From a virus, in the IMG/VR virus record IMGVR_UViG_3300018065_000011, positions 248,001-312,000 of that record: a stretch of DNA of 64,000 bases; one strand, written 5' to 3'. How positions within the stretch are numbered: position 1 is the stretch's first letter; each line of letters begins with the position of its first letter. Made by a program: the position numbers and the translations under genes. Below are positions 12,492 through 45,836 of this stretch, in pieces. A model generated the notes under the pieces. It saw only the letters and a list, made by a program, of their open reading frames with translations, searched no databases and was not told the DNA's origin.

Positions 12492-13658
12492 TTGGCCGGT
12501 GGCGCAAAGCCATGGAGTAGCGAAGACGATAGGCGGTTACGTGTGCTCTATGCCACGCTTTCGGCAGTGGAAGTTGCTAGGCAATTGGGGCGCTCGGTGG
12601 CGGCAATCCGCCACCGAGCCCACAAGATTGGTTGTACCAAGACGATATGGAATCGGAACCTTTCGGAGTTGGTTCGCGGACGTGCGCGAGATTTGTACGC
12701 TCGGGGTTTGACAATGGAAGAGATCCAAGAGCGGGAGGCTCTTTCCTATCATCAGGTCCGTTGGTGTCTTGGAAGAGGGAGAGCTACAAAAGACATTCCT
12801 CCAGGGTCCAAGGCGTTGGCGGCTCAGATTACCGGCTCAGAGCGACAAGAGATCATAGCCAAGGCCACTACAGGGCTACAGTCTTTGGATGATGTGGCGA
12901 AAGAACACGGCTATAATCGTTATCAGATTCGATGTGTTTTGAGGGAGGAAGGTGTGGATGTTCGGCGATGGTGGCGAGAGAAAGCAAGGAAGGTCTCTAA
13001 AACCAGGCCATTGCCGTGGACGCCTACGTCTCGTATTACGTTTTCTCCTTCTGTGGTAGCGGAGATTGTTCGCGACTTCACTGTTGGAATGCAAACGCAG
13101 AGAGAGATTGCGAAAAGACTAGGATGCGGATGGAAAGTTGTTTCTAGAGCACTTCGGGAAGCTGGGGTAGATAAGCGTTTTTGGGCGGTGAAGAAGGCGC
13201 AGAGGACACAGGCGGTTCTGCGAAGCCAAGGCAAGATCAGTTTGTCGCCAAGGGCAGGGCGTGGCCGTAGAACATACTACAAGACGCCTTTTCAGGGTGT
13301 TGTTTGCATGAGAAGTAGTACGGAAGCAGCCCGAGCGCGTGAACTGGATGCGTCAGGTGTTGCATGGTTTTATGAGGTTCGGGGGTTTGGGCTTTCAGAA
13401 GGGGTGTATACGCCGGACTTCTGGATAGCCGAGGTCTCTCGCGAAGAAGCGGAGAAGGTGCTTGGTGTTTGTCCAGATCGAGAATGCATCAGGAGATTTT
13501 TGTGCAAGACTCGTCATGTGGTTGAGGATGTGAAGGGATGGTTTAATGAGAAGCATCCTTCTAGAAAGAAGATTGCCAAGTTTCGAGCGGAATATCCTTT
13601 AGAGGACTTCCGTATTTTGGTTATTGATCGTAATGGTCGGCAGGAGATTCGGCTATGA
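12492..13658 (+). CDS. Free-standing homing-endonuclease-like protein, PD-(D/E)XK type
   Basis: 388 residues, TTG start behind AAGGAG (12482-12486). The N-terminal 240 residues hold several helix-turn-helix-like segments, the first SANT/Myb-like (WSSEDDRRLRVLYATLSAVE). From residue 259 a nuclease-like domain appears: YYKTPFQGVVCMRSSTEAA with E278, YTPDF with D309, then VVEDVKGW with D346 and K348, matching the E, PD and (D/E)xK arrangement of PD-(D/E)XK enzymes. Many codons end in T, unlike neighbouring genes, suggesting recent arrival. The last bases overlap the ATG at 13655. It likely cuts and copies itself into the intact gene junction of related phages; the target is not known. Confidence 0.7.
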   Translation: MAGGAKPWSSEDDRRLRVLYATLSAVEVARQLGRSVAAIRHRAHKIGCTKTIWNRNLSELVRGRARDLYARGLTMEEIQEREALSYHQVRWCLGRGRATKDIPPGSKALAAQITGSERQEIIAKATTGLQSLDDVAKEHGYNRYQIRCVLREEGVDVRRWWREKARKVSKTRPLPWTPTSRITFSPSVVAEIVRDFTVGMQTQREIAKRLGCGWKVVSRALREAGVDKRFWAVKKAQRTQAVLRSQGKISLSPRAGRGRRTYYKTPFQGVVCMRSSTEAARARELDASGVAWFYEVRGFGLSEGVYTPDFWIAEVSREEAEKVLGVCPDRECIRRFLCKTRHVVEDVKGWFNEKHPSRKKIAKFRAEYPLEDFRILVIDRNGRQEIRL

Positions 13659-14617
13659 GTGTCGCCTTTGAGCCCGGAGAATCGATTTCGCGCGGAGACT
13701 TGGACTTGTATCTCCAGAATTCAGTCGGCAATAGCGCGAATGCTTACGAGATCTCCTACGCGATTTACTACGTCGATCCCGTGAGCGGGGTCGAGGTGCT
13801 CGTAGGGCCGGCGGTTCGCATTCCGCAGAACCCGACTGTGGGTGAGTACTACGCAGCGCTCCAGGTTCCGCCTAACGTGACGGCTGGAGACTACCACATT
13901 CGATGGACGTTTCGTGAGCTAGCAGGCGCGCCGCAACAGCAAGTCGTGCAGGAGTTTGCGGTTGTTGATCCTGCGCTTGGTACGTCGGGAGGGACGGGTA
14001 GTTACACGACTGCGGAGCTACAACTCATCCGAAGTTTCCGCATCATGTTGCGAGACTGGAATCCCGATAAACACTACATGTTCAGGCCGCCAGAGCAAGA
14101 AGGAACCATCGGCCAGTACAACCAAGTGTTCGGATTTATTTGGGAGGACCATGAGCTTCTGGAGTATCTGGTCCGAGCACTTGCTTGGTGGAACATGTTT
14201 CCGCCATCCACGGGCATTCGGACATTGGATCAACTCGTTGCGCAAGCACCCGAGTGGGTCACTGCCGTGATCATGCAAGGCATTGTTCACGCGACGATGG
14301 CATTGAGTCTTCAGTGGATTGCGAATGAATTTGATTATTCGATTGGTGGCATTTCGCTCACGATCGAAAAGTCATCCAAGTACGAGTCGATCAAGAACAA
14401 CGCCGAGTCGCAAGTGCAGCAAGCAACCGAAGCGAAGCAGCAGACGGTGAAGTACATCCGTGGTCTAGCTCAGCCCCGCTACGGGCTTGGGATCAGAAGT
14501 GCCTTTGGTCCTCACGTTGGCCGCGGCGTGTTGAGTCCTCGCGGGTTCCTCGGTTTTGGGTTTTTCTTTAGTGTTTTCAACTATTTAGAGGTGTTTCAGG
14601 GTACGGGCTTGCTATAA
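13655..14617 (+). CDS. Phage structural protein with Ig-like N-terminus and altered C-terminus
   Basis: 320 residues, starting at an ATG inside the stop of the endonuclease gene. Residues 10-110 form a beta domain (GDLDLYLQNSVGNS, then GEYYAALQVPPNVTAGDYHIRW) similar in style to the small protein at 2843. Residues 125-270 are helical with many aromatics and no signal peptide; this suggests a neck or tail-associated protein. The last 20 residues switch abruptly to FGFFFSVFNYLEVFQG, encoded by AT-rich codons and lying right against the next endonuclease gene. The natural C-terminus may have been replaced on insertion. Confidence 0.8.
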   Translation: MSVAFEPGESISRGDLDLYLQNSVGNSANAYEISYAIYYVDPVSGVEVLVGPAVRIPQNPTVGEYYAALQVPPNVTAGDYHIRWTFRELAGAPQQQVVQEFAVVDPALGTSGGTGSYTTAELQLIRSFRIMLRDWNPDKHYMFRPPEQEGTIGQYNQVFGFIWEDHELLEYLVRALAWWNMFPPSTGIRTLDQLVAQAPEWVTAVIMQGIVHATMALSLQWIANEFDYSIGGISLTIEKSSKYESIKNNAESQVQQATEAKQQTVKYIRGLAQPRYGLGIRSAFGPHVGRGVLSPRGFLGFGFFFSVFNYLEVFQGTGLL

Positions 14618-14643
14618 GAGTTTGCGTGTGGTAGCTTCTCTCG

Positions 14644-16815
14644 ATGCCAGGGAAAAGCGGTGTTGGTAGTTGTCCCGCGTGTGGTGCTCCCGTAGCGCCT
14701 AGGAAAATTGGAGAGCATAGCGAGACGTGTTTAGCGTGGAAGGCTATGTTTGGGGCGCCTCTTCCTCGCTTCAAATACGATCCGTCTAGCAAAAAAGAGC
14801 TTTTTGCTGAAACGGCCGTTGAGGGAGTTGATTACCTTCGGTGCCAGGAGTGTTGGGGTTTTGGGTTAGATTTTCGATTCAGTCGCCTGGCTCAGCATCT
14901 AAAGGTTCATGGGTTGGATGAAGCGTCGTACAAGGCTAAATACCCTGGTTACGACATCCGCCTTGAGAAAACGGCAGAACGTCGGAAGGAGACAACGCAG
15001 CAGAGGTATGGCGTCGATAATGTCTTTCAGGCCGAGTCCGTAAAGACCAAATCGCGGGCGACGGTTCAGAGAAGATACGGGGTAACGCACATTGCACAGT
15101 CTTCTGAGTTTCAAACACGGAGAGCAGCTACGAACCTAGAGCGCTATGGCGTTTCCAATCTCTTTGCTTCAGCCGATGTTCAGGCCAAAATTCGGCAGAC
15201 AATGGAAGCGAAATATGGTGCTGCTCATGCGCAACAAGTACCTGAGATTCGTGCGCGGACGGAACAGACAACCTTGAAGCGCTACGGGGCTGCGTCAGCG
15301 CTTCACACGGCTCTTCGGTACGAAGAGCTTGCTAAACAACGAAAATGTCGGAAGCGAGAACGCCGTGAGCGTTTGATTGCCTCAGGGCAGCACGAGACTT
15401 GTCCGTTTTGTGATGGGGTTTTTCGCAAGATCACTAGCCGTCATAAGACTGTTTGTGAGGGATGGGTTGATGTGGCGTTTCCTGAGCCGTGCCTCTGCGG
15501 GCATGAATCGACATCGCTGACTCAGATGAAGAGGCATCGCCGCACCTGTGAGGTGTGGCAGAGCCGGGATTCGAGGGCCACGGCCCAAGCACGTCTTGAG
15601 AGCACGTTGGAGGACCGCTACGGACCTGGCGTCACCAACCCACGTCATGTGCCAGGAGCGGAGGAGAGACTCCGTGCAACGAACCTGGAGCGCTACGGGG
15701 CTGAGAATCCTTTTGCCCGCGAAGCCTCGACGTTTGAGAAGGTGCAGTCGAGCTTGGAGGGTAAGCGGTTTGTCTGGGCTCCCGAGGACAACCCTTTCTC
15801 CAAGCCCGAGACACAGGTGATCATTCGCAAACGGATGAAGGAGAAGTACGGAGCCGAGAGCCCGCAACAGGTTCCTGAGATCCGTGCTCGTACCCGAGCA
15901 ACGAATCTGGAGCGCTATGGTCATGAGGAACCCTTGGCCGCACCGGTTATTCGCAAGCGAATTGAAGTCACGAACATGAAGCGATATGGCGGACCTGCGC
16001 CATCGTGTTCGCCGGAGGTTGTTGGGAAGGCTCGTCAGACCAACCTGGAGCGGTGGGGTGTTCCTTGGACAGCGATGCATCCTGATGTTCGGCGCAAACA
16101 GCTTGAGGCGATGGAGGCCAGATGGGGTTCGCATTTCTTTGCGTCGGAGGAAGGTAAGGAGCAAGTGCGCAGAGGAATGCTTGCAAAATACGGGGTTGAG
16201 CACGCTCTGTTGTTGGGAGAGTTTAAAGACAAACGAGCGCGGACTTACTTAGAACGGTGGGGAGGAACGGGCACTTTTGCCTCTCTGTTCCAGATGGAAC
16301 GAGTCATCCGCACATGTCTTGCCAAGGTCGGTGTGGCGTTTTCCGAGTACGACACTCCTGCGCAGTCCGAGCAAGATCTCAAAGATCGCTACGGCGTCAC
16401 ACATCCGATGCAGCACAAAGATTACGCGAGATTGCATCTAGAGGCGATGGCTGAGCCGTCGCGAGAGCCGAATGGCTTAGAGCGCAGGGTTCAAGCTCTT
16501 GCTCCGCAGCTTCTCTTTACAGGCAATCGGACATTCTGGCGGTGGTTGCCCAAGCTCAGTCACCACAAGAACCCGGATTTCATCGAGCCGGGTCCTGATC
16601 CTGAGCATCCCAAGCGTGGTGTGAGGCGTGTGGTTGAAGCCTTTGGGGACTTCTGGCACTCTCGAATGTTCACTGGGAAGGCACCATTCGATCACGAAAC
16701 TGAGCTAGTCCAAGCCTACGCCGAGATCGGGATTGACTGTTTGGTGGTGTGGGAATCCGAGGTCAAGGCTGATCGCGGGGCCGTGAGGGCCAAGATAGCT
16801 GCATTTCTGGGGTAG
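14644..16815 (+). CDS. Repeat-rich homing-endonuclease-like protein, Vsr/EDxHD type
   Basis: 723 residues. Order of parts: C2HC finger (CPACGAPVAPRKIGEHSETC); a MucR/Ros-like finger ending LAQHLKVHGLDEASYKAKYP (about 60-100); a block of about five repeats of roughly 24 residues built on T-N-L-E-R-Y-G-V; a double zinc cluster (CPFCDGVF...C and CLCGHE...C, about 255-305); about ten further repeats; and a C-terminal nuclease domain (about 605-723) with NGLERRV, KNPDFIEPG, VVEAFGDFWHS and CLVVWESE, the Vsr-like pattern of EDxHD homing endonucleases. The repeats are probably DNA-reading modules. The protein likely mobilises its own gene; its site is presumably near 14600. Confidence 0.75.
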   Translation: MPGKSGVGSCPACGAPVAPRKIGEHSETCLAWKAMFGAPLPRFKYDPSSKKELFAETAVEGVDYLRCQECWGFGLDFRFSRLAQHLKVHGLDEASYKAKYPGYDIRLEKTAERRKETTQQRYGVDNVFQAESVKTKSRATVQRRYGVTHIAQSSEFQTRRAATNLERYGVSNLFASADVQAKIRQTMEAKYGAAHAQQVPEIRARTEQTTLKRYGAASALHTALRYEELAKQRKCRKRERRERLIASGQHETCPFCDGVFRKITSRHKTVCEGWVDVAFPEPCLCGHESTSLTQMKRHRRTCEVWQSRDSRATAQARLESTLEDRYGPGVTNPRHVPGAEERLRATNLERYGAENPFAREASTFEKVQSSLEGKRFVWAPEDNPFSKPETQVIIRKRMKEKYGAESPQQVPEIRARTRATNLERYGHEEPLAAPVIRKRIEVTNMKRYGGPAPSCSPEVVGKARQTNLERWGVPWTAMHPDVRRKQLEAMEARWGSHFFASEEGKEQVRRGMLAKYGVEHALLLGEFKDKRARTYLERWGGTGTFASLFQMERVIRTCLAKVGVAFSEYDTPAQSEQDLKDRYGVTHPMQHKDYARLHLEAMAEPSREPNGLERRVQALAPQLLFTGNRTFWRWLPKLSHHKNPDFIEPGPDPEHPKRGVRRVVEAFGDFWHSRMFTGKAPFDHETELVQAYAEIGIDCLVVWESEVKADRGAVRAKIAAFLG

Positions 16816-37463: not shown

Positions 37464-40400
37464 ATGCCAGACGGCACCCAGATTCCTGGTCACATTTACG
37501 CGCCCCCCAACGTCTACGTCGAGACTCAGACTGACACGCCGGTTCAAGCACCGATTCAGGGTGTTCGCATTCCGGTGTTCATCGGCACGGGCAACGAGGT
37601 TCTGACTCAGACGGATCTCGCGGTGGTTCGCGGGTCGTCTTCCAGTGTTGACCAGCAGGTTCCGCAGGAGGACATGACCGGCCGCGCGGTTGTCGCAATT
37701 CTGGCTTCCGGCGAGGTCGTCCTGGGTGACTTCGATGGTGATCGGCGGCTCATCCAGGTGCGCAATTATCCCATCGTCACGGGCGACGGGACGGGTACCA
37801 CGGCGACGGATGCAGCCAGCATCCAGGTGACGATCAACGGGCAGCCTGACGTGGTTTTGAACGTCCAGGGGGACAGAGGGGTGCTTGAGCTTTCGACGGC
37901 TCCAGGGCTCCATGACGACGTGAGATGCACGTATTTCTTCAACCGGACCGACACGCTGATCACGGACGACGTGAGCGATCAGGTGACTGCGGATCCCGCG
38001 CTCATTTACGGGAGCGGCGAGGAACCCGCAGGCGGCTACGACATCACGGTGGACAACAATGAGTTGATCCTGACCATCGATGGCGTCGAGACCACCATCA
38101 GCCTGGGGACGCCGGGCGTGAAGCCCGCAGCTACCGTGGTCTCGTTGATCAACGGAGCGGCCTCTTCTACGTCTCTTGTGGCTTCGCTCTACACCACGAA
38201 TTTCGGCGGCACTGCCATCCAATTCGTGGCCGACGAAAACCTCATCGTTGGTGCCGGTACGGCCAACACACTTCTTGGTCTGACCACGGGTGACGCGACC
38301 AATCGGCGCTCGACGTTCTACACATTCCAGGGTCCGATCGTTGACGGTTCCAACGGAGGAATCACGACCACGGACACCGGGAAGGTGACGGTCCGCGTCA
38401 ACAATGTCCAGGTCATCCCCACGTCCGTCAATGGATCGACGCGAGCGGTGACGTTGCCCTTTGCTCCGGCTGCTGGCTCGACCGTCACCATCGAGTACTT
38501 TTTCAATAGTTGGCAAGATACCTTCGACTATCTGGCGAACATCAACCTCACGGAGATCACCCGAGTCGGCATCGTTCCGGGGAACAGCGATTTCGTGCAG
38601 GGTGCGGACTTCGTGCTCAAGGATGATGTCATTGTCTGGGGTACGTCGGTTCTCATCACTTCGGGTGTTCACACCGAAGGAAGCACGTACTTCGGTGGAG
38701 ATGGAGGCCAGGTCAGCGCGCTCTTGGTGGATGCGCAGACGTACTTGGAGGAAGCCACTCCTGTCACGGATGCGACGGTCAGCCCGCCAGTTACGAGTCG
38801 GACGAAATTCGACCTTCCGTTCCAGCCCACGACGGGCAACGGACGCAACACGCCGATCGGGTTGAGTCTGTTCCAGACGGTCAGCAACAACCGTATCGAT
38901 CTTCCGACCAATCGCCCGGATCTGGTGATCGCCTATTGGGGCTTCTCGGTCGAGGATGCTTTGCAGCGTGGTCCGGTGGACGTGACAGCGGTCGAGGGAA
39001 CCAGGATCACTTTGAAGGATCCCGTGGACGTGGGTGCAACGGTCTACGCCACGTTCTACTACAACACGCTCGTAGATGAGGAGTACAGCCTGGTTTGTGA
39101 CGTGGCTGGTGCTTCGGGCATTGGTACCTATTTCATCCAAGACTCGAATAGCAACGACATGTTCACGCCGCGGTTTGGCGTGAAGGGGGCTGCGCTCACG
39201 GGCATCACCATCCAATTCCCGAGCGGCAGCGAGCTAACCCCGGACGTGCGTTTCGAGAGTGGTACGGACGGTCCGGTCGAGGAGACGGTCACGGTCTCGT
39301 TCGCGAGCATCGATGACACGATTGCGAAGTACAGCGTGCCCGGATCGGGACCGTACTTCACGATCGAGGATGCCTCTGATCATGCACGTTTCTTGATCGA
39401 CGGCACGGCACCGACTGGTGGCGGAGCGGGAATCGATCTTGCCCGTGTGGACGGAATCACCGGCTTGGGCGTGTCGGCCAGCTTGCTGGGCGAGGAGATC
39501 GAGTATGACGTAGCCTCGGGCAGCACGACCTACGACATTACGGCCGGGACCAACGACGAGGTTTCGGTCACGGTCGATGATGTGCTCATTACGTCGATCG
39601 CTGCGGCAGGAACGGGTGTCAACGCGGACAACTACGTTGACGCGCTCAATGCTTTCGCCAAGCTGCAACAGTTTGCTCCGTTCTACACGGCACAGACACG
39701 TTTCGTGGGGTCGACGGTCATTACTGCCGGCGAGTACGACACTTTGGTCATGCACTACAATGGTGCTGTGGCAGGCCCATCGGGTGCGATCACGGCGATC
39801 ATTCCGCCGCTGACCTACGCCAGCCCCATGGCTCTGGCAACGGCTCTGGATGGAGTGATTGCAGCCGCAGTCGGTGGTTTGGGTCCGGCGTTTGCCGGGT
39901 TGGCGATCAACGTTACTGTGGATGCCAATAGCCGGCTCCGATTCACGTTGCAGGCGGCGACGGGAGACATCGGCACTTTCGCGGCCGGTGGTGTCATCAC
40001 CGTGGCGTTAGTGCCGGTCGTGGGTGACCAGATCATCTTCACGGATTGGGCTGGGAACCAGGCAGCACTCACGGCAGATACGGCCACAACGCCAGGCGGC
40101 AACAACTTCGACGTGTCGTCCGGTGTGGCAGCCACGATCGCTGGTCAGATCGCTATAGCGATTCAAGATGTGACGAACAACGTGGCTTCGATCGTGACCA
40201 CGACGGGCGCTGTTGGTGTGACGATTCCAGTGGTGCCAACTGTTCCGGGTACGCTCGGAAACCGGGTCGTTATGGTCGAATCCGCCGCAACTCCGGCAAC
40301 CTTCACGTTCGTACAGCCTTCGGGCGCGACGGACTTGGCAGGTGGCTATTTGGAGTTTGCGGACGCACCGACGCTTGCCAGCGATTTCGCGATTCTGGCA

Positions 40401-42803
40401 GGCATCAGCGTGGCTCCGGCACCGGGAGGATTGCAGACCAAGTTGCTCAACGGAGACATCGCTCGGCGCTTCTCGGTAGCGGGCGGTTCCGGTGCGCTTA
40501 TCTACGATCGCATCATTCTCCGCAACCGCATCATGCCTGGATCGGGCAGCGTGGCCGGGCCTTCCCAGCTTGCGCAGACAGAGCTACGCATCGAGGGGAA
40601 CAATGCGATCACGGAGACGGGTCTCCAGCCCAACGACGCTGGGTTGGCGGCGATGGGGGCGGTCGTGCAGCCAGCGACGCTGTTTGGCGAAGTGGGGTTT
40701 GTCAGCGGTCAGGTGCCGACAGGCGCCTACGGGGATGCTCGCGACGGGCAGCCGGTGGTGACGTTCTTCGCAGACGGAGGCACACAGCCGCAGAACAACG
40801 TGTTCAAGATCAACATCGATGGCATCATGGTGAACGTCACGTTCACGGATGCTGCGGGTGTGGTCATTCCGGCTGGCGGCACAGCAGACGTACCGTTGGG
40901 GCCGGGAACGATCGCGAACACGATTCTGGCACAGCTAGACGCCGCCGCAGTGGCGGCTGGGTTGCCCGCGGGCACGTTCTTGCCAGAAGGCGCTGGTATT
41001 CGGATCGTGAGCGGCACGTCTCGCGTGTCCTCAGCGATCACGGTTGGAGCCGGGAATGCCAACGATGTGTTGGGATTCTCGTCTGGCGGCACGGCGGCAC
41101 GGACGGAGGTAGAGCCCGAGCAGATTGCTTCGGCTCTCATGGCGCATCACGACGCAACGGTATCGGCCAAGCTCCTGAGCTACTCCTCGCCAGGAGTGAC
41201 CTACTTCGCTGGCTTGGCTCTTGCTGGTGTCATCAGGGATGCGGCGAATGCCGAATTCCTGTACCTCCAGAGTCAGGCGAGCACGGTCGGAGGTCTGGGT
41301 CTGTCGAGCAGCATTGCGCTGCTACAGCCCACGGTTGGAAACGGTAGCTGGCTGCTTCCAGGCACGGGCATCAATGCCGAGGTTGGTGACGGCGCATCCG
41401 GTGAGGAAGGCTTCAACGGATACTACGTCACATCGTCCGATCCGACAGACGGGTCCGGGTCAGCGAACACGTCGAGGCTCAACAACGGAGTGGGTCAAGA
41501 TGGCGTGATCGGCCAGACGTATCGAGATACCGTCACGGGTCTCACGTTCACGGTTCTGGCACGTGAGGGTGGCGGGGTGTACCCGACTGGTGTGGGTGCA
41601 ACCTTCACTTTCGAGGTACGCAATAAGGTCATCACGGACAGCAACCTTCCGGTCAACACAATCCCCGGAATCGAGCTTTTGGTGACGAACACCACTGGCG
41701 TCGCGGTCGGGGACACGGCTGTGGTCGATACGATCGAGCGCGGGGGCAGCGAGCCTGCCGTGGGCGATCTCTACTACGCGACCTACAACTACCAAAAGGA
41801 AAGTTTCGACACTGGCTTGTACACACGGCTGGCAACGATCGAGCGTGTGTTTGGTGCAACATCGCCAGAGCATCTTCTGTCCCTGGCGGCGTATGTGTCG
41901 ATCATCAACGGGGCGGTTGTCGTTGGGCTCAAACAGGTTCCCAAGCAGCCCAACAGCAATCAGGGCAGTATCACGGACTACTTCGATGCCGTGGACGATG
42001 TGCGTGGAGTCCTCCCAGGTGGGGCGAGGCTCAGCACGCTCACTCCGTTGCGTGGAGACTCGGAGGAGCTATTCCAGAAGATCAGTCAGCATGTTGATCT
42101 CCAGTCCAGCATCCGGCTGCGATCGGAGAGAACCTCGATCTTTGGCGTTTCCTCGGGGACGCAGCCCTCGGCTGCGGGAGACCTGGCCGAGTTGCTGGGC
42201 AACACCCGGATGAGGATGGTCTACCCAGACATCGCCAAGATCACGCTGACCGATGCGGTGAACAACGACAAGCAATTCCTGGTTGACGGCACGATTCTCT
42301 CGGCGGCAATGGCAGGAAACCGAGCAAGCCCGAACATCGACGTGGCAACGCCATGGACACGGGCACGATTGCTCGGGTTCGATGAGCTTGCTCGTATCCT
42401 CGATGCGGTCGAGCAGAATCAGGTTGCCGTGCGCGGCGTGACGATCTTGGAGGATCGCCGTCCGGCAATCAGTGTGCGCCATGGGCTCACGACGGATGTC
42501 ACCAACGTCCTGACCAAGACCCCAACCGTGATGACGATTGCGGATGAGGTACAGCAGCAGACTCGCGTGACGCTGGACAGGTTCATCGGGGTCAAATTCC
42601 TGCCCGGTATCCTGAATCAGATCGAAGGTCGCCTGACCTTCATGCTCAAGGGGCTCATCGCGGCGGAGATCATCGCTGCCTTCACTGGAGTGCAGGCTCA
42701 GACAACGAGTGATCCAACGGTGGTTGCGGTCGAAGCATGGTATCAGCCTGTTTTCCCGCTACTATACATCATCGTCACCTTCAACCTCCGCTCAGTTTTG
42801 TGA
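37464..42803 (+). CDS. Giant tail sheath protein
   Basis: 1779 residues, two to four times the usual 400-700. The N-terminus (HIYAPPNVYVETQTDTPVQA, VRIPVFIGTG) and C-terminus (DEVQQQTRVTLDRFIGVKF, GRLTFMLKGLIAAEIIAAF, WYQPVFPLLYIIVTFNLRS) match contractile sheath proteins, whose terminal arms link neighbouring subunits. Between them are many beta domains rich in Thr, Val, Gly and Asp, including one with IAIAIQ, GTLGNRV and LAGG similar to the insertion in the gene at 9925. These probably decorate the outer surface of the sheath. The tube gene lies separately at 50248. Confidence 0.85.
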   Translation: MPDGTQIPGHIYAPPNVYVETQTDTPVQAPIQGVRIPVFIGTGNEVLTQTDLAVVRGSSSSVDQQVPQEDMTGRAVVAILASGEVVLGDFDGDRRLIQVRNYPIVTGDGTGTTATDAASIQVTINGQPDVVLNVQGDRGVLELSTAPGLHDDVRCTYFFNRTDTLITDDVSDQVTADPALIYGSGEEPAGGYDITVDNNELILTIDGVETTISLGTPGVKPAATVVSLINGAASSTSLVASLYTTNFGGTAIQFVADENLIVGAGTANTLLGLTTGDATNRRSTFYTFQGPIVDGSNGGITTTDTGKVTVRVNNVQVIPTSVNGSTRAVTLPFAPAAGSTVTIEYFFNSWQDTFDYLANINLTEITRVGIVPGNSDFVQGADFVLKDDVIVWGTSVLITSGVHTEGSTYFGGDGGQVSALLVDAQTYLEEATPVTDATVSPPVTSRTKFDLPFQPTTGNGRNTPIGLSLFQTVSNNRIDLPTNRPDLVIAYWGFSVEDALQRGPVDVTAVEGTRITLKDPVDVGATVYATFYYNTLVDEEYSLVCDVAGASGIGTYFIQDSNSNDMFTPRFGVKGAALTGITIQFPSGSELTPDVRFESGTDGPVEETVTVSFASIDDTIAKYSVPGSGPYFTIEDASDHARFLIDGTAPTGGGAGIDLARVDGITGLGVSASLLGEEIEYDVASGSTTYDITAGTNDEVSVTVDDVLITSIAAAGTGVNADNYVDALNAFAKLQQFAPFYTAQTRFVGSTVITAGEYDTLVMHYNGAVAGPSGAITAIIPPLTYASPMALATALDGVIAAAVGGLGPAFAGLAINVTVDANSRLRFTLQAATGDIGTFAAGGVITVALVPVVGDQIIFTDWAGNQAALTADTATTPGGNNFDVSSGVAATIAGQIAIAIQDVTNNVASIVTTTGAVGVTIPVVPTVPGTLGNRVVMVESAATPATFTFVQPSGATDLAGGYLEFADAPTLASDFAILAGISVAPAPGGLQTKLLNGDIARRFSVAGGSGALIYDRIILRNRIMPGSGSVAGPSQLAQTELRIEGNNAITETGLQPNDAGLAAMGAVVQPATLFGEVGFVSGQVPTGAYGDARDGQPVVTFFADGGTQPQNNVFKINIDGIMVNVTFTDAAGVVIPAGGTADVPLGPGTIANTILAQLDAAAVAAGLPAGTFLPEGAGIRIVSGTSRVSSAITVGAGNANDVLGFSSGGTAARTEVEPEQIASALMAHHDATVSAKLLSYSSPGVTYFAGLALAGVIRDAANAEFLYLQSQASTVGGLGLSSSIALLQPTVGNGSWLLPGTGINAEVGDGASGEEGFNGYYVTSSDPTDGSGSANTSRLNNGVGQDGVIGQTYRDTVTGLTFTVLAREGGGVYPTGVGATFTFEVRNKVITDSNLPVNTIPGIELLVTNTTGVAVGDTAVVDTIERGGSEPAVGDLYYATYNYQKESFDTGLYTRLATIERVFGATSPEHLLSLAAYVSIINGAVVVGLKQVPKQPNSNQGSITDYFDAVDDVRGVLPGGARLSTLTPLRGDSEELFQKISQHVDLQSSIRLRSERTSIFGVSSGTQPSAAGDLAELLGNTRMRMVYPDIAKITLTDAVNNDKQFLVDGTILSAAMAGNRASPNIDVATPWTRARLLGFDELARILDAVEQNQVAVRGVTILEDRRPAISVRHGLTTDVTNVLTKTPTVMTIADEVQQQTRVTLDRFIGVKFLPGILNQIEGRLTFMLKGLIAAEIIAAFTGVQAQTTSDPTVVAVEAWYQPVFPLLYIIVTFNLRSVL

Positions 42804-42827: not shown

Positions 42828-42863
42828 ACAGAGCCCAAAAGCGGCGTTTGCCGTGGGGTCTGT

Positions 42864-42885
42864 GGTGGTGGTATGGTGGTGGTAT
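42864..42885 (+). repeat. 11-base tandem duplication at the start of the fusion gene
   Basis: GGTGGTGGTAT occurs twice in a row (42864-42874 and 42875-42885); the second copy runs into the ATG at 42884. An out-of-frame ATG arises from the first copy. The duplication may affect translation initiation. Confidence 0.85.
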
Positions 42886-45067
42886 GGATGAGGAGATCTG
42901 TGCAGCCTTTCGGTCCGATCTGTCTTCTGCCGCGGTTGCTGAATCGTTGGGGGTTGGTCGACAGCGTGTTCTCAAAGTCTGGAAGGCTTCCTTTGGTGCC
43001 GGTGAGGTAAGAGCACGTGCGAATAGGCTTCGCTCTCGCCCCAAGAAAGAAGATCCTCAGCAACGGGCAGCAGCTCTGCCGTGGTTCGCTGAGGGTGTGG
43101 CAGTCAAGGAGGCTGCGCGAAGATTGGGTGTCCACTATCTCAAGGTTCAACGATGGTGGATCGAAGAGTTTGGAGAAGAAGTATATCGGAGTCGTGGAAA
43201 GCGTCTTCAAGCTGCGCGAACGGCAGCCAATAACCGTAGAGGATTGCCGAAGACGCAAACGGTTGTACGAGTCGCCTGTGAAGACTGCGGCACGGAACAC
43301 GACCGTACAATGATGAGTTTGGCCAAGGCTGCGCGGCTCATTTGTCCAACGTGTAAGAGCAAGAAGCAAGATCCGCATGCGTGTCCGGTGTGTGGTTTTG
43401 TGTTCGAAGGCGCTCGGGGGTTGGCGTCTCATTTTCGGCATCAACGGAATTGCTCTGCGCATAAGGAGTATCGACGCAAGCAATGGGAAGTCCTGGCAAG
43501 TCGGACTGACGAGTACGTGACTTGCCAGGAGTGTGGCTTCGTAGGTCGGTCGATTTCGGCTCATATTCAAACACACGACCTAAATTGGAGGAGCTACACG
43601 CGTAAGTATCCTGGTGCTCCTCTGTATTCGGCGATCTCAGAGGCACGGAGGCGTGCTCGTATCCGGGAAACACATGCCAGGTACGGATTCACATACGCGG
43701 ACTTCAAGGCGTACCTGGATGACGAGCATCGTTTGATTGTGGCGGCTGCGGCTAAGGGATTGGGAGTTGCTCAAGATACGGTGCGGACATACGCGAAGAA
43801 ACTAGACATCCCTACGCGGAATCGATTGGCGTGGCAGCGAGAAGTCTTGCAGACGGTAGCTGATGTTTTGGGCGAAGCGTATAAGTGGGAATGGTCTGAC
43901 GATCGTATTCGAAATCCCGAGACGGGGAGGTTACTGAATTATGACGGCTGTTTTCCCAAGTCAAAGGTGATCGTGGAGTGCCATGGAATTCAGCATTACC
44001 AGTTTGTTCCTCGATGGCACCGTCTTCCAGAGGAATTTGTCAAGTTGCGGGAGCGAGACGTTTACAAAAAAGAGCGAGCGGAGGAGCTTGGCTATACCGT
44101 GATCGAAGTGCGCTATGATGCAGAGGTATCTCGTGAGTTTTTCATGGAGTTGTTGCGAGCACCAAAGAAGAGTCGTCAGGCGGTGAAGGACAAGGCCGAG
44201 ACAATTCTGCGGGAGCTACGGAGGGATTGCTTTCCGTTTCCGGTGATCGATCCAGAGGAGACTCGGAGGGAGTTGGAAAGGCTACAACGGAAGCGCCTGA
44301 AGTTAGTTGACGGGATTATCGTTCCTCGTTCGTGGGTTGGGACCAAAGTCTGCAAAGCATATTTCCCCAATCTCTTCCAAGCCAGGTACAAGAATCAGCT
44401 ATCGGCTGTAGAGGCGTGGAATTCGGATGAGAAGCTCCGGCTTGCTATCCTGACTCAACTAGACTCGTCGCATCCGACGACACCAGAACGAGTGCTTAAG
44501 GCGATTCTGATGCATCATCGGGTTCCTACGGTTTTCCGTCCAGCTTATGCTCGATACTTGTATGACCGCTACTGCCCGGAAGGCAAGACAACATGGGATC
44601 CTTGCGCAGGGTGGGGCGGGCGTCTCTTGGGCGCCGCAGCGGCGAATGTGAGATACATCGGAACGGAGATTGATGCTCTTACTGTCGAGGGGAATCGCAG
44701 GTTAGCTTCCGATCTGCGGCATGACGCGGAGATCATTGAAGGGTCGGCATTGGGCGCGGACATCCCTCAGGTAGACTTTGTATTCACCTCTCCGCCCTAC
44801 TATGACGTTGAGCAGTATTCAGACCATCCTGAACAACCTCACATGCGATTTGGTTCCGAGGAGGATTGGGTAGAGGGGTTTCTCTTGCCTTTGGTCAGGA
44901 AGGCACGTTCTGTGCTGCCTCAAGGCTGCGCTATGGCTCTCAACCTCTCCGATGCCTTGCTAGGGCGTCTAGAAGAGTGCGCTTTTGATTGTGGTTTTGA
45001 GCTTGAGACCGTGGTTGGCTTTGAGCTTCCGAATGGAAAGGTTGCTCGGACAGCCGTTTACCGATAG
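42884..45067 (+). CDS. Zinc-finger / nuclease / DNA methyltransferase fusion
   Basis: 727 residues. Parts in order: helix-turn-helix segments (1-110, AAVAESLGVGRQRVLKVW and AVKEAARRLGVHYLKVQRWW); a CEDCGTEH...CPTC ribbon; a C2HC finger (CPVCGFVFEGARGLASHFRH); a MucR/Ros-like finger (CQECGFVGRSISAHIQTHD...KYPG) related to the one at 14644; another HTH; a PD-(D/E)XK-like nuclease (about 345-430) with NYDGCFPKSKVIVECHGIQH; and a methyltransferase (about 560-727) with motif I DPCAGWGGRLLG and motif IV SPPYYD. SPPY indicates amino-methylation of A or C. The gene is rich in T-ending codons. It looks like a homing-type element carrying its own protective methylase. Confidence 0.75.
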   Translation: MDEEICAAFRSDLSSAAVAESLGVGRQRVLKVWKASFGAGEVRARANRLRSRPKKEDPQQRAAALPWFAEGVAVKEAARRLGVHYLKVQRWWIEEFGEEVYRSRGKRLQAARTAANNRRGLPKTQTVVRVACEDCGTEHDRTMMSLAKAARLICPTCKSKKQDPHACPVCGFVFEGARGLASHFRHQRNCSAHKEYRRKQWEVLASRTDEYVTCQECGFVGRSISAHIQTHDLNWRSYTRKYPGAPLYSAISEARRRARIRETHARYGFTYADFKAYLDDEHRLIVAAAAKGLGVAQDTVRTYAKKLDIPTRNRLAWQREVLQTVADVLGEAYKWEWSDDRIRNPETGRLLNYDGCFPKSKVIVECHGIQHYQFVPRWHRLPEEFVKLRERDVYKKERAEELGYTVIEVRYDAEVSREFFMELLRAPKKSRQAVKDKAETILRELRRDCFPFPVIDPEETRRELERLQRKRLKLVDGIIVPRSWVGTKVCKAYFPNLFQARYKNQLSAVEAWNSDEKLRLAILTQLDSSHPTTPERVLKAILMHHRVPTVFRPAYARYLYDRYCPEGKTTWDPCAGWGGRLLGAAAANVRYIGTEIDALTVEGNRRLASDLRHDAEIIEGSALGADIPQVDFVFTSPPYYDVEQYSDHPEQPHMRFGSEEDWVEGFLLPLVRKARSVLPQGCAMALNLSDALLGRLEECAFDCGFELETVVGFELPNGKVARTAVYR

Positions 45068-45323: not shown

Positions 45324-45394
45324 GCCGAAGCCCAAGGGCGGTATCGATTCCCGTCCTTGGGCTGTCACGCCATTGTCGGGTTAGTTGAAGTCAC
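45324..45394. repeat. 71-base direct repeat, copy 1
   Basis: Identical to 46432-46502 except for three transitions. It contains a stem of GCCCAAGG with CCTTGGGC around a loop containing ATCGAT. On the minus strand it begins with codons for Asp-Phe-Asn-stop. Similarity continues into 45395-45445, where the frame reads PKTEQL, matching the end of the DUF932-like gene. Confidence 0.9.
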
Positions 45395-45445
45395 CCGCTG
45401 CTGTATATTCAACCTCAGGTCGGTGCTGTAGTTGCTCAGTCTTGG

Positions 45446-45467
45446 GGCCGCCGGATTTCCGGCGGCC
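45446..45467 (-). terminator. Strong GC stem-loop after the minus-strand genes
   Basis: GGCCGCCGG (45446-45454) and CCGGCGGCC (45459-45467), a perfect 9-base stem with loop ATTT, directly follow the stop of the gene at 45468-45836. There is no U-tract on the minus side; on the plus side the flank TCACTTCTTCTT is T-rich, so it may work mainly in that direction or as an mRNA 3' stabiliser. Confidence 0.55.
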
Positions 45468-45836
45468 TCACTTCTTCTTGACCTTCCAGGGAGTGGTCTC
45501 TTCTGGGTGGAACGTGGCCTCGATGCCAGCCTCATCGAGCGCGCCAACGAGATCAAGAAGCATCAGGAGCGAAGTCTCGATCGTGTCTTTTGGGGACTTG
45601 GTGGAAAACTTGTAAGCCTGGTCTCCGAAACGGAGGGAGACGGTTTGACAGTCGCTAGAGATGTGGATGGACGAGTGGTCTCGGATGCTCATGCGTGCCT
45701 CTACCGCTCGCGCTTCGGCTGCGTCGCGCTTGTCTTGCAGTGCAGTTGTTGTCGATACATGGTCCACGAACCGCACCCACCCGCCGTCGTCGGCCGCGTA
45801 CATGCCGGAAGGTCTCCATTCGTATCGCTTATCCAC
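45468..45836 (-). CDS. Small unknown phage protein, last of minus-strand unit
   Basis: 122 residues from GTG 45836, overlapping the previous stop. It has an N-terminal aromatic, acidic segment (DKRYEWRPSGMYAADDGGWV), a helix (TALQDKRDAAEARAVEARMS), then strands and a helix (SPKDTIETSLLMLLDLVGAL) and a Lys-rich end (WKVKKK). No family recognised. Confidence 0.65.
   Translation of the reverse strand: MDKRYEWRPSGMYAADDGGWVRFVDHVSTTTALQDKRDAAEARAVEARMSIRDHSSIHISSDCQTVSLRFGDQAYKFSTKSPKDTIETSLLMLLDLVGALDEAGIEATFHPEETTPWKVKKK

Follow-up and report, generated by a model that had tools for sequence, protein, structure and literature searches.

Locus organization and domain architecture of the fusion protein

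The 64,000-nucleotide stretch of viral DNA analyzed here (the window) comes from a virus record of 372 kb, which has a near-identical sibling of 497 kb. A single plus-strand gene lies downstream of a large conserved gene, the putative tail sheath gene (Table 1). Its frame is free of stops from 42848 to 45067, and the first in-frame ATG, at 42884, gives a protein of 727 aa. From the N- to the C-terminus, the protein combines two helix-turn-helix (HTH) regions, a zinc ribbon, a C2HC finger, a MucR-like finger, a third HTH, a predicted Vsr-fold nuclease and an amino-methyltransferase (amino-MTase) with a TSPPY motif. The initial annotation had claimed this order of HTH, fingers, nuclease and MTase in one protein, and it was borne out by the frame, by Pfam and PHROG matches and by the nuclease model. 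The gene is unchanged in three near-identical IMG/VR records, and independent relatives have the same architecture, which together rule out an assembly artefact as the source of the fusion.

Table 1. Features at the fusion locus, in window coordinates.
Feature	Position	Strand	Evidence or remark
Upstream host gene (putative tail sheath, 1779 aa), insertion target	37464..42803	+	C-terminus FPLLYIIVTFNLRSVL
Diverged 3' end of host gene	42754..42803	+	Last 50 nt 74% identical to L009
Homing endonuclease-methyltransferase fusion gene (727 aa)	42884..45067	+	Single open frame
Two HTH regions (residues 1-50, 58-118)	42884..43237	+	HTH_23 at 59-91 only; both all-helical in the model
Zinc ribbon (132-160) and C2HC finger (165-193)	43277..43462	+	Weak Zn_ribbon_8/YnfU matches; C167, C170, H183 and H193 invariant in six relatives
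MucR/Ros-like finger (210-258)	43511..43657	+	ROS_MUCR 3.9e-5; 5e-12 in relative L021
Third HTH (271-312)	43694..43819	+	Weak HTH_17/MerR matches; helices in the model
Predicted Vsr-fold nuclease (314-425)	43823..44158	+	17-copy alignment, model, Foldseek, PHROG homing endonuclease families
MTase module, helical N-terminal part (446-565)	44219..44578	+	Common to fused and stand-alone MTases
Predicted amino-MTase catalytic domain	44579..45064	+	Motif I DPCAGWGG (44597-44620), motif IV TSPPYY (44786-44803)
Remnant of original host-gene 3' end (38 bases)	45394..45431	+	Reads CCCGCTGCTGTA-TATTCAACCTCAGGTCGGTGCTGTAG
Terminator-like hairpin	45443..45470	+	12-pair stem; count of such sites not above chance for the region

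The Pfam matches of the target protein to HTH_23, Zn_ribbon_8 and ROS_MUCR are weak and sub-threshold. Relatives of the same architecture reach 5e-12 for ROS_MUCR, and fused relatives of other kinds reach 1e-11 for N6_N4_Mtase. The model of the full-length fusion is of moderate quality (pLDDT 74, pTM 0.46), and the domain arrangement in it was left unused. The fingers had been likened to those of a homing endonuclease encoded at 14644; the kinship is real, but it is confined to one MucR-like finger (33% over 64 aa, E 2e-5). The T-rich third codon positions noted at the outset were confirmed, with a T3 of 0.286 and a GC3 of 0.54 in the fusion gene versus 0.187 and 0.72 in the upstream gene. A T3 close to that of the fusion gene recurs in the genes at 12492 (0.30) and 14644 (0.27). 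Three T-rich genes at 12492-16815, with a codon composition like that of the fusion gene, comprise a D5-like regulator, an unknown gene and the 723-aa homing endonuclease (DUF7487 8e-54, phrog_3339 5e-39).

The nuclease half is predicted to adopt a Vsr fold

Residues 344-417 match homing-endonuclease families in PHROGs (phrog_559 1e-10, phrog_9084 2e-8), and a search of the PDB by sequence with the nuclease profile returned nothing useful. An AlphaFold model built on an alignment of 17 nuclease copies had a pLDDT of 91, and its best solved match in Foldseek was the E. coli Vsr endonuclease (1vsr, E 5e-4; 1cw0, TM 0.61). By its modelled structure, the domain is a Vsr-fold nuclease. Vsr is a member of the PD-(D/E)XK superfamily. 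Residues D354, E365, H367, Q370, H371 and K395 are invariant in the 17 copies, with or without the MTase. Loss of active-site residues in relatives, named in advance as evidence against the proposed nuclease-methylase element, was not seen; the catalytic residues are kept. A nuclease tree required two changes of the MTase label.

The Vsr-like core and the long modular DNA-binding region resemble those of the EDxHD homing endonucleases such as I-Bth0305I (PMC3943268), a likeness drawn at the level of the fold. The catalytic motif of the fusion reads D...ExHGxQH...K, and the fused MTase sets the protein apart from that family. It also has its nuclease fold in common with the Vsr endonuclease that is paired with Dcm. 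Dcm is a C5 MTase, whereas the partner in the fusion has TSPPY amino-MTase motifs, so the pairing is not that of Vsr and Dcm.

The methyltransferase half resembles amino-group DNA methyltransferases

MTase families match at residues 540-720 (phrog_12517, 1e-18; N6_N4_Mtase, 4e-4). The module spans approximately residues 446-727 and carries the SAM-binding motif I and motif IV, with no long segment afterwards. A profile of the fused MTase modules matched the modification methylase 2zie (5e-13) and the cytosine-N4 DNA MTase 8s9m (1.5e-5), and the target protein matched PADLOC mad2 (6e-10). A fold search with the MTase also returned RNA and protein amino-MTases, and the fold alone cannot tell the DNA from the RNA type. 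Judged by these matches, the module is most likely an amino-group DNA methyltransferase, with N4-cytosine or N6-adenine as the predicted product. A target-recognition domain (TRD) gave no match in Pfam and PADLOC, and about 90 residues follow the TSPPY motif. In length, the fused MTase is close to its stand-alone relatives; these are frequent in phages of Vibrio, Bacteroides and Staphylococcus. Between fused pairs with unsaturated dS, dN/dS ranged from 0.10 to 0.17 for the nuclease and from 0.07 to 0.13 for the MTase, indicating purifying selection on both halves. A fusion with Vsr (PF03852) and MucR fingers in L017 (LR756508) has TSIPY in place of TSPPY, possibly a decaying MTase.

The element adjoins a diverged host-gene end and a remnant of the original one

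Relatives of the upstream gene were found in 279 IMG/VR stretches, with the C-terminus FPLLYI..FNLR. The initial annotation had placed the fusion gene alone after the sheath gene. The position is right, but the naming as sheath found no supporting match in Pfam, PHROG or PDB sequence searches, and we treat it as putative. Copies of this gene in the window and in L021, L026-L029 and L104 encode 1366 to 1779 aa, some of them cut by contig ends, and their C-terminal 250 aa are well conserved despite the lack of a convincing library match.

A comparison with empty sites in related phages had been suggested as a check. Two relatives of the host gene, L009 (89% identical) and L012 (65%), are free of the element, and a hairpin, identified by eye, directly follows the stop codon. 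The host gene in the window ends in ...TTCAACCTCCGCTCAGTTTTGTGA, and this diverged end is interpreted, from the sequence comparison, as having been replaced on the arrival of the element. A 38-base segment downstream of the fusion gene corresponds to the L009 gene end minus 11 nt between the FPLLY and FNLR codons; the gap is possibly near the cut site. This remnant scored 23, whereas none of 240 other segments of the window exceeded 16; with a larger query set, the scores were 26.5 for the remnant and no more than 15.9 for the controls. Of the last 24 nt of the L009 host gene, 22 are identical in the remnant but only 17 in the working gene end. Because the L009 end fits the remnant better, the element seems to have entered close to the end of the host gene, brought a new end and left the old one behind. 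The hairpin that follows the remnant is probably the old terminator of the host gene. The element lies between the host-gene stop codon and this terminator, so it is probably transcribed with the host gene.

Clear remnants are limited to two elements, that of the window and a second fused element, L022, a small number that counts against the proposed mechanism. The fused frame of L022 ends in SLFEGLGIGTYNLK, matching the head-protein end SVFENLGIGAYNPK, and its remnant of the head-protein gene end reads FEGLGIGTYN for FENLGIGAYN (score 51 versus 32 for controls). Among the head-gene loci, the remnant is clear in L022 only and suggestive at most in L109, L148 and L024; the other occupied sheath loci have none above control level. 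L299 has a relative of the target in two pieces, 76-4412 nt past the host-gene stop: about 1.2 kb separates the N-terminal part from the nuclease-MTase part, as though an insertion had broken the copy.

Fixed insertion sites are occupied in some phages and empty in others

All 7 Vsr-like fusions surveyed lie directly 3' of the conserved gene that ends in FPLLYI..FNLR. A second site lies 3' of a major head gene of 284-343 aa (phrog_2522, 1e-50), where 11 of 16 LAGLIDADG fusions, 3 of 6 zinc-finger PD-(D/E)XK-like fusions and 1 of 2 fusions with a C-terminal finger were found. A third lies 3' of a T4-like major head gene (phrog_138; 6e-81 and 3e-72 in the two head genes scanned), which is followed by two TnsA-like, one GIY-YIG-like and one LAGLIDADG-like fusion. 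These counts cover the fusions with an identified upstream gene and leave out the other eleven.

Among 51 distinct putative sheath loci (less than 97% alike, with at least 1 kb downstream), a fusion is present in 7, a related nuclease without the MTase in 13, and neither in 31. The corresponding numbers for 42 distinct head-gene loci, found with a query that came from an occupied locus, are 13, 6 and 23. A locus was scored as "neither" when nothing in it matched the nuclease set used; it could hold other insertions. An MTase without a nuclease was not seen at any of the 51 sheath or 42 head-gene loci. In the sibling contig (464-477 kb; L277), the head-gene site of the window's own phage holds overlapping or tandem frames related to the LAGLIDADG and PD-(D/E)XK-like kinds, with no MTase.

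Occupancy is thus polymorphic at both the sheath and the head sites. The selfish nature of the element, proposed in the initial annotation, is well supported by the empty alleles, the target remnant, the fixed insertion site, the polymorphic occupancy and the conserved nuclease residues. On this sequence evidence, the gene is very probably a free-standing homing endonuclease element of giant phages. An Rfam search of the window gave no match, and the element sits after the host-gene stop codon, which together argue against an intron or intein.

Two other readings of the gene as a whole bear on these distributions. The first is a domesticated phage core gene, for example a Vsr-like repair enzyme partnered with an MTase, a reading that draws on Vsr being the nearest fold. 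We regard it as hardly credible: 31 of the 51 sheath sites carry neither the fusion nor its nuclease-only kind, and an enzyme with amino-MTase motifs would not make the 5-methylcytosine mismatches that Vsr repairs. Conserved presence in all relatives as a core gene had been named beforehand as evidence against a selfish element, and what we found is absence of the fusion from most sites; the empty alleles rule out a core gene. The second is a one-protein restriction-modification system directed at co-infecting phages, in which the phage's own genome would be methylated and unmodified competitors cut at many sites, with no homing. Nuclease and MTase do share one chain in Type IIG/IIB enzymes (PMC4081073, PMC4027205), and both halves of the fusion are conserved. 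However, an element of fixed position beside conserved genes, with remnants of its target, empty alleles and nuclease-only versions at the same sites, has the anatomy of homing, and Pfam and PADLOC recognized no target-recognition domain of restriction-modification enzymes in the fusion. This second reading is improbable, and we retain the homing element.

One methyltransferase family is fused to unrelated homing nucleases

Among 150 distinct ORFs with the MTase module, collected from two scans of IMG/VR, one of GTDB and phage records, 37 are fused to homing-type nucleases, which are of several unrelated kinds. The Vsr-like kind with HTH and MucR fingers has seven members including the target. 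The most numerous kind is LAGLIDADG_2 (n = 16; PF03161 up to 2e-38 among those scanned), and six fusions combine a zinc finger with a repeated PD-(D/E)XK-like domain (nuclease assigned by eye). The remaining kinds are TnsA-like with NUMOD3 (n = 2), PD-(D/E)XK-like with a C-terminal MucR finger (n = 2; nuclease by eye), Vsr with MucR and NUMOD3 (n = 1; PF03852, 3e-6), GIY-YIG-like with NUMOD3 (n = 1; GIY-YIG by eye), AP2/HNH-like (n = 1; by eye) and another LAGLIDADG-like kind (n = 1; by eye). In a tree of 139 MTase modules, inferred by a quick method and with several long branches, 28 fused rows with six nuclease kinds form one group (support 88), within which the nuclease kind changes. Further fusions fall elsewhere in the tree. 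The joining of this MTase to unrelated homing nucleases in large phages suggests that cutting and marking DNA cooperate in selfish elements.

Similar cysteine-rich (CGNR-like) fingers are C-terminal in L016, L033, L043 and L161 and N-terminal in L044, L045, L141 and L147. Their presence at opposite ends of fusions with different nucleases suggests shuffled DNA-binding parts. Upstream of the fusions in L102, L141, L161 and L171 are mutually homologous minus-strand frames, which are probably shadows of a conserved plus-strand gene.

Proposed role of the fused methyltransferase

In the mechanism that we propose, the HTH and zinc-finger region would recognize the upstream gene, probably that of the sheath, at its conserved 3' end, where the Vsr-fold domain would make its cut in phages without the element. 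Repair from an element-bearing genome would then copy the element in by gene conversion, together with the altered gene end. The fused MTase may methylate DNA (N4-cytosine or N6-adenine) at or near the sequences found by the shared DNA-binding region, and this methylation would spare element-bearing genomes from cuts at remaining target sites or half-sites. We hold with moderate confidence that a homing endonuclease element with an MTase protecting element-bearing genomes is the best overall explanation.

Coupling of the two functions is argued for by their fusion rather than mere adjacency, by the repeated joining to unrelated nucleases, by the lack of MTase-only copies and by the strong constraint. 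With purifying selection acting on both halves, the recurrent fusion and the absence of MTase-only copies at the insertion sites fit coupled functions; the simplest of these would plausibly be to mark sites in the genome that carries the element. Three points weigh against such self-marking. Nuclease-only elements fill the same sites, so the MTase is dispensable for homing. The altered host-gene end could alone protect the element's own genome. No TRD was recognized in the MTase by Pfam or PADLOC, and its length is close to that of stand-alone relatives that must locate their sites alone. Self-marking of the element's own genome by the MTase is accordingly a tentative proposal. The wider idea of a class of self-marking homing elements, in which one protein would use a shared DNA-binding region both to cut element-free alleles and to methylate the genome that carries it, and the MTase has repeatedly been joined to unrelated nucleases, is possible and is put forward with reserve.

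The main rival to self-marking is protection from restriction. The homing element would then carry a useful passenger, an MTase that methylates short sites genome-wide and shields against host restriction, an advantage to a phage that keeps the element. The frequency of stand-alone relatives in Vibrio, Bacteroides and Staphylococcus phages, the matches of the fused module to known DNA MTases (2zie, the cytosine-N4 enzyme and PADLOC mad2) and the strong purifying selection on the MTase half all fit a passenger. Protection does not need fusion, however, and the MTase never occurs without a nuclease at the two sites, although a useful passenger should sometimes survive the loss of the nuclease. 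We judge this rival rather unlikely. It is very improbable that the MTase instead aids homing, for instance by preventing a second cut during repair, or assists expression of the element, for instance through modified DNA near the host gene that alters the gene's transcription. Such a role would fit the recurrent coupling to nucleases and the location of the element, with the host gene on one side and that gene's probable old terminator on the other, but nuclease-only elements spread without the MTase.

Relation to known systems

Homing endonucleases and restriction-modification have mostly been handled as separate selfish systems, with an evolutionary link suspected. A single MTase family fused to unrelated homing nucleases at fixed sites makes this link testable, and the nuclease-only versions at the head and putative sheath sites are natural controls. 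If the proposal is true, self-marking elements merge the logic of homing with that of restriction-modification. The fusions would also provide site-directed nuclease-methylase proteins with long recognition regions.

The element resembles the free-standing phage homing endonucleases of intronless homing, such as T4 Seg and Mob and those encoded close to head and terminase genes (PMC2988022, PMC10448857), in lying outside any intron or intein, in adjoining a conserved gene, in its sporadic occupancy and in its modular DNA-binding region of HTHs and fingers. It differs from them in the added C-terminal DNA methyltransferase domain, and a term search for methylation found no mention in those two papers. 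Earlier work has described homing genes next to head and other essential genes (PMC10448857), restriction-modification enzymes in a single chain (PMC4027205) and phage methylase genes with homing insertions (PMC11855218). Type IIG/IIB enzymes such as TstI, BcgI and BsaXI likewise hold a nuclease and an amino-MTase in one polypeptide, whereas the fusions involve several unrelated homing nucleases, a long finger/HTH region, no TRD recognized by Pfam or PADLOC and a fixed site with empty alleles. The ShiLan element (PMC11855218) also brings homing nuclease and DNA methylase sequences together at one locus. There, the nuclease gene interrupts a methylase gene, which is its target, whereas here the whole nuclease-MTase gene is mobile and another gene is the target. 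No report of a homing endonuclease with a methyltransferase domain was found in the open-access literature searched.

Silent change at the target ends

Silent differences from the nearest element-free relative were compared along the head genes. At empty loci, silent change was not raised at the 3' end (0.310 versus 0.315 upstream, p 0.8). Beside fusions, it was 0.453 in the last 30 codons versus 0.349 upstream (p 0.0045); the sequences are related, non-independent and at unequal distances, and the p value serves as a guide. The nuclease-only group (8) is too small for comparison. Methylation that replaces recoding of the target predicts less silent change beside fusions, and this form of the idea is not supported: the data, at unequal distances, show more.
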